Of a DNA stretch of 64,000 nt, positions 57,689 through 60,240 are shown in pieces. Position 1 is the first letter of the stretch; each line of letters begins with the position of its first letter. Both the position numbers and the translations under genes were made by a program. The stretch lies in NCBI GenBank assembly GCA_003696955.1, contig RFGU01000249.1:1-64000 (forward strand), read 5' to 3'. Origin of the DNA: Deltaproteobacteria bacterium (GTDB taxonomy: Bacteria > Myxococcota_A > Polyangia > Nannocystales > Nannocystaceae). The notes under the pieces were generated by a model, which worked only from the letters and a program-made list of their open reading frames with translations, was not told where the DNA came from and did no database searches.

Positions 57689-57720
57689 GACCGCGGCGCG
57701 AAGAAGGCGTGGGGTCTCAG
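57685..57720. terminator. 8-bp inverted repeat containing both stop codons
   Basis: Arms 57685-57692 (CTGAGACC) and 57713-57720 (GGTCTCAG), 20-base loop. The TGA of the lipid kinase gene and that of the Mpl fusion gene are both inside the arms. No T-tract. Confidence 0.5.
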
Positions 57721-59627
57721 GTTCGCGGCGGCAGGATCGCCCCCTCGGTGGGCAACTCGAACACCATGCAGACGGCACCTTCGAGGGCGGCCGTCGCCTC
57801 GAAGTTCGGGGAGCCGACCACCCGGGGGTCGACCACCTCGCGGGGGACTTCGGTGAAGCCGAGCTTCGTGGCGAAGAAGTTCGATGCCGTGGCCGTCACG
57901 AGGTAGATGCGCCGAACCCCCTGGGTCCGCGCGTGGCGCATGATGCAGTCCCCGAGCACCCAACCGAGCCCCTCGCCGCGCCGCTCGGGGGTCACGGCCA
58001 GGCCGAAGAGGAACGCCGCATCGCCCCGCACGTCCAGGCTCACGCAGGCGACCACGTCCTCCCCGCCCCGGATCACGAGTGTGTCGACGGTGGGCTCCCA
58101 GACCACGGCCGGCAGCCCGTAACCGGCGAGCAACGCATCCACCTGCGGACGATCGCGCGTCTGGGCGAAGACCACCGGATCACCGAGCCGCTGCAGGATT
58201 CGCGTGCCGAGATCGTCGAAGCTGCCACTCGACAGCACGAGGACCGTATCCCCCGGTGCGACGGCCGAGATGACGTCCTCGAGGAGCACGTCGGTTCGCT
58301 CGAACGCGCGTGCCGGCACGCCCCGTGCACCGATGGCCCGGGCAAGCTCGACCGGGTCGAGACGCTCGTTCGCGGGGACCTTCTCCGGACGGTACAAGGG
58401 ACCTATCCGCACGCTCGATGCCGCATCGAATGCCGACGCATAGGCCTGTTGGAACACCCGCCGACGGGACGATGCCGAGCGGGGTTCGAAACACACGTGC
58501 AGCGCGTGTTCCGGATACCTGCGGCGCAGGGCCGACACCGTCATCGCCACGGCCGTGGGGTGGTGGGCGAAGTCGTCGATGACCCGCACCCCCTGGGCGA
58601 CGCCGAGCAGCTCCTGGCGCCTGCGCACGCCACGAAAGGTCTGGATCCCCCGCGCGACGACCTCGGGATCGCACCCGTGCAGCCGGCACAACCCGATCAC
58701 CGCCAGGAGGTTGGCCACGTTGTGCTGGCCCACGAGCTGCGTGGAGAAGGTGCCCAACGGCGTCCCACGTTCGTACACGTCGAAGACCGTTCGCCGCGCT
58801 CCGGGCCGGCTGCGCACCACGGCGGCATAGTCCCGCTCCCCGACGCTCGCCTCGTCGGGCACGACGCCATAGGTGTGGATCCTGCCCTCGCAGGCGGCCG
58901 CACACCCGAGGGCTTCGGGGTCGTCACCGCAGACGAGGAGATCACCATCGGCCGGGATCAGGGCTGCAAACGCCCGAAACGTCCGGCGCACCTCGTCGAG
59001 GTCCGCGAAGATGTCCGCGTGATCGAACTCCACGGACGTCAAGATGGCCCGCTTGGGACGATAGTGGAGGAACTTCGAGCGCTTGTCGAAGAACGCCGTG
59101 TCGTATTCGTCACCCTCGACGACGAACGTGTCGCCGCTGCCGAGGTGGTAGCCCCGGCCGAGGTTCTGCGGCACGCCCCCGATCAGATAGGAAGGATCGG
59201 CTCCAGCCACGACCAGGCACCACGCCAGGGCACTGGCCGTCGTCGTCTTGCCGTGGGTGCCCACGACCACGTACGGGTCACGGCCTTCGAGCAAGGCCGA
59301 AGCGAGCATGGAGGGAAAGCTCTCGAGCGCGATCCCCCGTTCCTTGGCGGCCACCACCTCCGGGTGGTCCGCGCTGCAGACGTTGCCCACCACGACCCGG
59401 TCCGGCCCCCAGGCGAGGTTCGCCGGATCGAAGCCCTCGAACACGTCGATCCCCGCCTCCTCGAGCTGGGTGCTCATGGGCGGGTAGATGGCGGCATCCG
59501 AGCCGCGGACGTCGTGGCCGGCTTCCCGCATGAGGCCGGCGAGGGCTCCCATGCCGGTCCCGGCGATGCCGATGAAATGGACCTTCAGGGCCCTTCCATC
59601 TTCGGCGGCGAGGCCCTCCTGGGTCAA
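57717..59627 (-). CDS. mpl: Mpl murein-peptide ligase fused to a GNAT acetyltransferase domain
   Basis: A 636-residue fusion. Residues 15-480 are Mpl, which reattaches the recycled tripeptide L-Ala-gamma-D-Glu-meso-Dap to UDP-MurNAc: IGIAGTGMGALA, the ATP loop VVGTHGKTTTAS (about 122-133), the Mpl-typical EGDEYDTAFFDKRSKFLHY, VGQHNVANLLAV, and DDFAHHPTAV. Residues 485-600 have a GNAT acetyl-CoA fold: LFGLAVTPERRGEGLGWVLG (motif A with RRxGxG/A) and TASNFFATKLGFTEV (motif B). The end (about 600-636) is extra. The start is uncertain: TTG 59627 has a GAGGGG element about 9 bases up; GTG 59648 or CTG 59588 are alternatives. Confidence 0.9.
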   Translation of the reverse strand: MTQEGLAAEDGRALKVHFIGIAGTGMGALAGLMREAGHDVRGSDAAIYPPMSTQLEEAGIDVFEGFDPANLAWGPDRVVVGNVCSADHPEVVAAKERGIALESFPSMLASALLEGRDPYVVVGTHGKTTTASALAWCLVVAGADPSYLIGGVPQNLGRGYHLGSGDTFVVEGDEYDTAFFDKRSKFLHYRPKRAILTSVEFDHADIFADLDEVRRTFRAFAALIPADGDLLVCGDDPEALGCAAACEGRIHTYGVVPDEASVGERDYAAVVRSRPGARRTVFDVYERGTPLGTFSTQLVGQHNVANLLAVIGLCRLHGCDPEVVARGIQTFRGVRRRQELLGVAQGVRVIDDFAHHPTAVAMTVSALRRRYPEHALHVCFEPRSASSRRRVFQQAYASAFDAASSVRIGPLYRPEKVPANERLDPVELARAIGARGVPARAFERTDVLLEDVISAVAPGDTVLVLSSGSFDDLGTRILQRLGDPVVFAQTRDRPQVDALLAGYGLPAVVWEPTVDTLVIRGGEDVVACVSLDVRGDAAFLFGLAVTPERRGEGLGWVLGDCIMRHARTQGVRRIYLVTATASNFFATKLGFTEVPREVVDPRVVGSPNFEATAALEGAVCMVFELPTEGAILPPRT

Positions 59628-59904: not shown

Positions 59905-60240
59905 ATGGACAACGATCGCCGCTCCCGCAAGCGGGTACCCATCTCCGTCGAGCTCAAGCTTCATGCCCCGTCGCTGCATTTCGTCCTGCTCTCCCGAACG
60001 GTGGACATGTCGACCCGTGGCGCATTCGTGCGCTCGAACCGTCCCCTACCCGTCGGGGCCCCGGTGACGGTCGAGTTCGACCGTGGACGGGCCAAGAATC
60101 CGCTTCGTGTATCCGCCGAGGTCGTGCGCGTGGGATCGGTGGAGGAGGGCCGCGCGGCCGGGATCGCCCTGCGCTTCACCGACGTGACCGAGCTCGACGA
60201 GGCCCTGATCGACGACCTCATCCGCACCGCGAAGGCCTGA
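59905..60240 (+). CDS. PilZ-domain protein
   Basis: A 111-residue single-domain protein. It has RRSRKRVPISVEL (RxxxR contact near the N-terminus) and TVDMSTRGAFVRS, the DxSxxG motif in the full form, so cyclic-di-GMP binding is likely. A GGAAGGGA ribosome site lies 8 bases before ATG 59905; earlier in-frame starts at 59887 and 59863 exist. It is divergent from the Mpl fusion. The 277-base gap between them holds no other gene I can support. Confidence 0.87.
   Translation: MDNDRRSRKRVPISVELKLHAPSLHFVLLSRTVDMSTRGAFVRSNRPLPVGAPVTVEFDRGRAKNPLRVSAEVVRVGSVEEGRAAGIALRFTDVTELDEALIDDLIRTAKA

Follow-up and report, generated by a model that had tools for sequence, protein, structure and literature searches.

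The window analysed here is a stretch of 64,000 nucleotides from a member of the Nannocystaceae (contig RFGU01000249.1), and the minus strand of positions 57717-59627 forms a single open frame, the translation of which runs for 636 residues without a stop. The frame is read from a TTG at 59627, which lies within a block conserved in the sister genome G001 and is taken as the putative start codon, and it ends with a stop codon at 57717-57719; the plus strand of this interval is also open but encodes no recognisable product. In the one frame, Pfam recognises Mur_ligase, Mur_ligase_M and Mur_ligase_C (PF01225, PF08245 and PF02875; residues 15-468) together with Acetyltransf_1 (residues 516-591, E 2.7e-9). 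The Mpl part spans approximately residues 14-484, and the GNAT part (residues 485-636) begins about three residues after the last Mpl helix. The original prediction that an Mpl ligase continues in frame into a GNAT domain is therefore borne out by the translation and the Pfam domains, and the two strings that it singled out, ERRGEGLG and GFTEVPREVVD, are both found in the minus-strand translation. The features of the locus are as follows.

57717..59627, minus strand: Mpl-GNAT fusion, whole gene (636 residues plus stop; putative TTG start at 59627)
58185..59585, minus strand: Mpl ligase part with three Mur-ligase domains, residues 15-481 (Pfam, TIGR01081, PDB 3hn7/3eag)
59238..59261, minus strand: ATP-binding P-loop GTHGKTTT, residues 123-130 (no variation among the 29 fused proteins aligned)
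59082..59105, minus strand: Mpl-specific loop YDTAFFDK, residues 175-182 (matches the PaMpl loop, PMC3060825; mostly invariant)
58176..58184, minus strand: Mpl/GNAT junction, from helix 470-481 to strand 485-487 (AlphaFold2 model)
57720..58175, minus strand: GNAT domain of ArsN2/NAGS type, residues 485-636 (PF00583; NF040501, 73 bits; NAGS fold matches)
57960..57983, minus strand: acetyl-CoA pyrophosphate loop RRGEGLGW, residues 549-556 (G553 invariant; R550, G551 and G555 near-constant)
57855..57896, minus strand: T-x-x-A-x-x-FF-x-x-K-x-GF motif, residues 578-591 (in most fused proteins; not in families f15 and f21)

The fusion gene of the window is flanked by a convergent gene of the diacylglycerol-kinase family and a divergent PilZ gene. 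A PilZ-domain gene upstream of Mpl-GNAT and in the opposite orientation recurs in several Nannocystaceae (window 59905-60240; L067:4865-5161; L068:5636-5998; L069:5621-5968), its identity resting on Pfam in the window and on inspection by eye at L067, L068 and L069. In families f3, f12 and f15, a gene of the inositol-monophosphatase family directly follows Mpl-GNAT (L071:5134-5946, L072:8045-8878 and L079:5003-5848) and may belong to the same operon, acting as a phosphatase. Neighbours differ between families, and no operon partner is conserved across them; no ars-type genes were seen around ten fused loci, as judged by eye from ORF starts.

The fusion is widely distributed in one class of myxobacteria. 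The sister genome G001 carries a one-frame fused homologue with 76% identity over residues 1-634, and fused homologues are present in 27 of the 28 same-family genomes examined in detail, the 28th being 54% complete. Among the first 98 relatives, the one-frame fusion was also found in ten further families, at 41-53% identity. The same domain pair, which the original prediction proposed to seek in other genomes, is present in 92 of 318 Polyangia genomes and in 13 families, a fused-type match being one with an E of 1.4e-39 or better in the GNAT-part profile; the named carriers include Nannocystis exedens, N. pusilla, Nannocystis NZ_CP114040 (a complete chromosome) and Paraliomyxa miuraensis. Elsewhere in the phylum, within the genomes sampled, Mpl stops at residue ~470; the matches listed for other classes in the 379-genome phylum sample end at approximately profile position 460-500, without a GNAT. 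A contig scan across 84,980 species yielded just 32 loci, although it used one peptide pattern and could therefore miss distant fusions elsewhere; these loci are labelled Myxococcota, Myxococcales, Polyangia, Nannocystaceae, Polyangiaceae, Kofleriaceae, Deltaproteobacteria or unclassified MAGs, or bear the names of species. The window's genome is a draft of 268 contigs, but as 92 genomes show both domains in one frame, among them a Nannocystis with a complete chromosome, it is extremely improbable that two separate genes were joined by a sequencing or assembly error. A frameshift or misassembly, and equally a fusion unique to one genome, against which the original prediction had been staked, are excluded by the one-frame homologues in independent genomes. 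No prior description of an Mpl-GNAT fusion was found in the literature searched, which covers few subscription journals; the protein is a new domain architecture built from known parts.

The N-terminal three quarters of the protein would be an intact Mpl, joining recycled L-Ala-gamma-D-Glu-meso-DAP to UDP-MurNAc, as its family and conserved residues suggest. The TIGR01081 (mpl) model scores 361.9 bits over residues 15-481, under its equivalog cut-off of 388.7, and the murC model scores 292.9 bits; it is on its residues, and not on the cut-off, that we call the ligase Mpl-type. The nearest solved structures by sequence, 3hn7 and 3eag, are both Mpl, and 3hn7 is also the top fold match. Like known Mpl (PDB 3hn7, PMC3060825), the ligase half has three Mur-ligase domains, GTHGKTTT, YDTAFFDK, FAHHPTA and EPRS. 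In PaMpl, the Mpl-specific loop (S/T)AFFDK follows Tyr182, and the Mpl-specific residues of the C-terminal domain are RR, FAHH, EPRSNT and SNG (PMC3060825). RR, FAHH and EPRS are kept in the window, whereas NT is replaced by AS and SNG by SSG, such that N406/T407 and N484 of PaMpl become Ala/Ser and Ser. Unlike known Mpl, the window protein runs on into a GNAT domain and remains under the equivalog cut-off. A MurC identity was considered for the fused ligase and rejected, as the mpl model outscores murC and a separate MurC-type ORF exists. This ORF of 462 aa, with GSHGKTTT and DDYGHHPTE, is followed by a MurB-like ORF (motifs recognised by eye), and the fused ligase is therefore not the sole MurC-like enzyme of the genome.

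The C-terminal quarter would be an acetyl-CoA-dependent N-acetyltransferase derived from an ArsN2/NAGS-type ancestor and fused once; acetyl-CoA binding is expected from its family. Its R550-G-E-G-L-G555 fits the (R/Q)xxGx(G/A) loop, PF00583 matches it, and its top structure matches are GNAT folds. The closest curated family is ArsN2 (NF040501), with 73.2 bits for the window, 111.2 and 120.9 for f3 members and 102.5 for f12, all below the cut-off of 125 bits, compared with 136-144 bits for true ArsN2 controls from the same class. NAGS models score lower (30-58 bits). In the fold search, M. tuberculosis ArgA and N. gonorrhoeae NAGS account for the first five solved matches, and the profile search agrees in placing NAGS structures at the top; the best solved-structure matches are thus short NAGS (M. 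tuberculosis ArgA, PDB 5yo2/5yge) and the NAT domain of classical NAGS (PDB 2r8v). The two families are related, ArsN2 being grouped nearer to N-acetylglutamate synthases than to phosphinothricin acetyltransferases by Nadar et al. (PMC6465285).

The fused GNAT shares with ArsN2 the LP loop, the acetyl-CoA loop, the T..A..FF..GF motif and the C-terminal CM region. It differs in scoring under the cut-off, in one extra residue after FF, in the C-terminal Cys-Pro of ArsN2, which the alignment shows as conserved in no fused group, and in lying outside ars operons, and the Nannocystaceae have Phe in place of Arg541. The closest standalone relatives of the GNAT half in the class lie within ars operons, several of them fused to ArsC, so that in Polyangia ArsN2 is likewise a C-terminal fusion partner. 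Such fusions of an ArsC-type arsenate reductase to an ArsN2-like acetyltransferase were seen in ars operons at L162:4543-5409, L163:4780-5604, L166, L167, L170 and L171; both the ArsN2 and the ArsC models match in L162, and the other loci were judged by eye.

The two sides of the GNAT domain are conserved to different degrees. The RRxGxG-type acetyl-CoA loop named in the original prediction is intact: no fused protein departs from G553, and R550, G551 and G555 are retained in almost every one of them. At position 541, 10/10 ArsN2 and 88% of the other fused proteins carry Arg, 28/28 Nannocystaceae carry Phe, and f15 and f21 carry Lys. Position 532 is occupied by Glu in ArsN2 and in the majority of fused families and varies among the Nannocystaceae, the window protein having Asp. 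A separate conserved pattern (N608-F609, C620-M621 and D583-F584-F585) distinguishes the Nannocystaceae, and T578, A581, F584, F585 and K588 are lost in f15 and f21.

AlphaFold2, run on 29 aligned fused proteins, gave a mean pLDDT of 89.7 (92.7 for the GNAT domain modelled alone) and a pTM of 0.89, and only three residues separate the last Mpl helix (470-481) from the first GNAT strand (485-487). The short junction and the confident model suggest a fixed arrangement of the two domains rather than a loose tether. In the tree of the ligase part, the fused Mpls form one clade with a support of 0.978, the Nannocystaceae forming a clade of their own; the unfused Mpls of f10 and f13 are nested among them with a support of 0.023, which is negligible, so that either the GNAT part was lost in these families or their placement is wrong. 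In the tree of the GNAT part, for which only two ArgA sequences served as the outgroup, the fused GNATs also form one clade (0.949), adjoining ArsN2 (0.879). The simplest reading of both trees is one old fusion, in an ancestor shared by much of the Polyangia. Between the window's genome (G000) and G001, dN/dS is 0.149 for the Mpl part and 0.158 for the GNAT part, and it is low in both parts in most other close pairs; the exceptions for the GNAT part are 0.35 and 0.61 in Nannocystis pairs with few differences and 0.57 in an f16 pair. These ratios are rough because the widest pairs, with synonymous differences of up to 0.6-0.7, come close to saturation. By this measure, the GNAT domain is under purifying selection, as the ligase is.

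We propose, with a probability of about 0.4, that the fusion is a bifunctional salvage protein, in which Mpl is joined to a GNAT that acetylates a small alpha-amine, probably that of a peptidoglycan-derived amino acid or peptide. The GNAT half might transfer the acetyl group to the alpha-amine of a small molecule that Mpl meets or that is released in salvage, and the candidate acceptors would be L-Ala-gamma-D-Glu-DAP, L-Ala-D-Glu and free Glu. Acetylation could then redirect or shield some of the salvaged material, and the acceptor pocket would be adjusted by lineage. Whereas the fusion, its homology, its conservation and the purifying selection on it are observed, catalysis and substrate are what we infer from them, and there is no conserved gene partner that points to a substrate, which counts against this reading. 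A muropeptide common to all carriers is disfavoured as the acceptor because the acceptor side should then be conserved, yet position 541 and the FF pair vary. For the same reason, and because the NAGS residues considered below are absent, we advance the acetylation of a muropeptide or of glutamate tentatively.

The main rival reading, to which we give less weight, is that the GNAT domain has ceased to need an acceptor: by binding acetyl-CoA or CoA, it may regulate or stabilise Mpl and link salvage to carbon status. What speaks most against a universal substrate and for such a sensor is the variation of acceptor-side residues between lineages; no part of the domain is more constant than the acetyl-CoA loop. 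Families f15 and f21 have lost T578, A581, F584, F585 and K588, yet dN/dS of the f21 GNAT is 0.124 despite the loss of the T..A..FF..K motif. The short junction and the confident packing in the model are also in keeping with regulation. Nevertheless, most fused proteins, including that of the window, have a coherent TxxAxxFF..K.GF pocket, and the Nannocystaceae keep NF...AVCM, both as expected for an enzyme. Our preferred reading of a bifunctional salvage protein could be taken further to a branch point, at which the GNAT half N-acetylates recycled peptide or amino acids when acetyl-CoA is plentiful and one protein decides between reuse and an acetylated fate; in this specific form we regard the proposal as rather doubtful.

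A further and less probable reading is that the GNAT domain supplies N-acetylglutamate for arginine synthesis as a synthase that happens to be attached to Mpl, in the way that S-NAGS is attached to ArgH in marine gammaproteobacteria. The reaction of NAGS is the acetylation of glutamate at its alpha-amine (PMC4490483). The GNAT half is akin to NAGS in fold and sequence, and there is a precedent in ArgH-NAGS (H-NAGS) of the Alteromonas-Vibrio group (PMC4490483, PMC3827942), in which a NAGS-type GNAT is likewise fused C-terminally to a larger enzyme of metabolism. However, the ArgH partner belongs to the arginine pathway and the Mpl partner to peptidoglycan recycling. Unlike NAGS, moreover, the fused GNAT has no amino-acid-kinase domain, and it lacks counterparts of the glutamate-binding Arg316 and the base Glu353 of N. 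gonorrhoeae NAGS (PMC4490483): in the profile alignment, Arg316 stands opposite a gap, and the residue opposite Glu353 is F539 in the window protein and Leu, Ile or Val in other families. In the region of NAGS Arg425/Ser427, f4 has R-S-K, in a C-terminal stretch that aligns poorly. The NAGS-type kinship that the original prediction read from an argA-like ending therefore holds at the level of fold and profile, with ArsN2 nearest, and does not extend to these two residues.

The distribution of arginine genes was followed with the ArgJ, ArgB, S-NAGS, ArgA and NAGS-K models in 98 relatives, and with ArgB in all 318 Polyangia. The f3 genomes G038 and G062 have an arginine cluster without detected ArgJ, ArgA or NAGS-K; argC, argD, N-acetylornithine carbamoyltransferase, argB and argH were identified in G038 (L111), and argH and an ArgE-like deacylase in a similarly laid-out cluster in G062 (L117). 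ArgJ, ArgA and NAGS-K were likewise not found in the f1 genomes G002, G007 and G010, and in the f7, f18 and f19 genomes and nearly all f8 genomes the fusion and ArgB are both missing; these observations speak for a NAGS role. That NAGS activity is the only role was considered on an early correlation, in which families without ArgB lack the fusion or show an altered motif, and was rejected. The correlation was weakened by G346, G050, G078 and G083, which keep the domain without detected ArgB (the motif being altered in G050, G078 and G083), and by G324, which has ArgB and an altered motif; other NAGS candidates in many carriers weakened the proposal further. These candidates (PF04768) occur in f4, f6, f9, f16 and f20, in most f12 genomes and in Nannocystis, and the window's genome has ArgJ; a review of NAGS also describes an ArgC-NAGS fusion in Haliangium (PMC4490483). 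G346 (L172) is a Polyangia genome of 1.6 Mb, estimated to be 98% complete, and its retention of Mpl-GNAT without detected ArgB suggests a role tied to Mpl. As many carriers have another NAGS candidate or ArgJ, as some lack detected ArgB and as the NAGS residues are missing, NAGS is a poor general explanation; arginine synthesis is unlikely to be the main role of the domain, although a NAGS role is possible for f3 members. A separate observation concerns ArgJ itself, which on contig C55 of G000 (L109:5489-8848, minus strand) runs in frame into an apparent amino-acid-kinase region (ArgB/ArgA-like); in several same-family genomes, a partial match to the ArgA model adjoins ArgJ.

It is very unlikely that the GNAT half retains an ArsN2-like function in which an arsenic-containing or other glutamate-like toxin is acetylated, its attachment to Mpl being fortuitous. 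ArsN2 is indeed the nearest family model (111-121 bits for the f3 type and 73 for the window, against 125), and within the class it is ars operons that contain the closest standalone relatives, several of them fused to ArsC. Nevertheless, Cys-Pro is conserved in no fused group, the Nannocystaceae have lost Arg541, and ars genes were not seen beside the fusion at the ten loci.

In summary, peptidoglycan recycling beyond the gammaproteobacteria is poorly known, and the question raised here is directly testable because the fusion is one polypeptide and occurs in Nannocystis, which is in culture. It provides a handle on the ArsN2/NAGS-type acetyltransferases, the ArsN2 branch of which is without a named substrate in the published account consulted. 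An ancient and selected fusion, confined to one myxobacterial class as far as searched, may point to an undescribed acetylation or acetyl-CoA-sensing step in the salvage of the cell wall.
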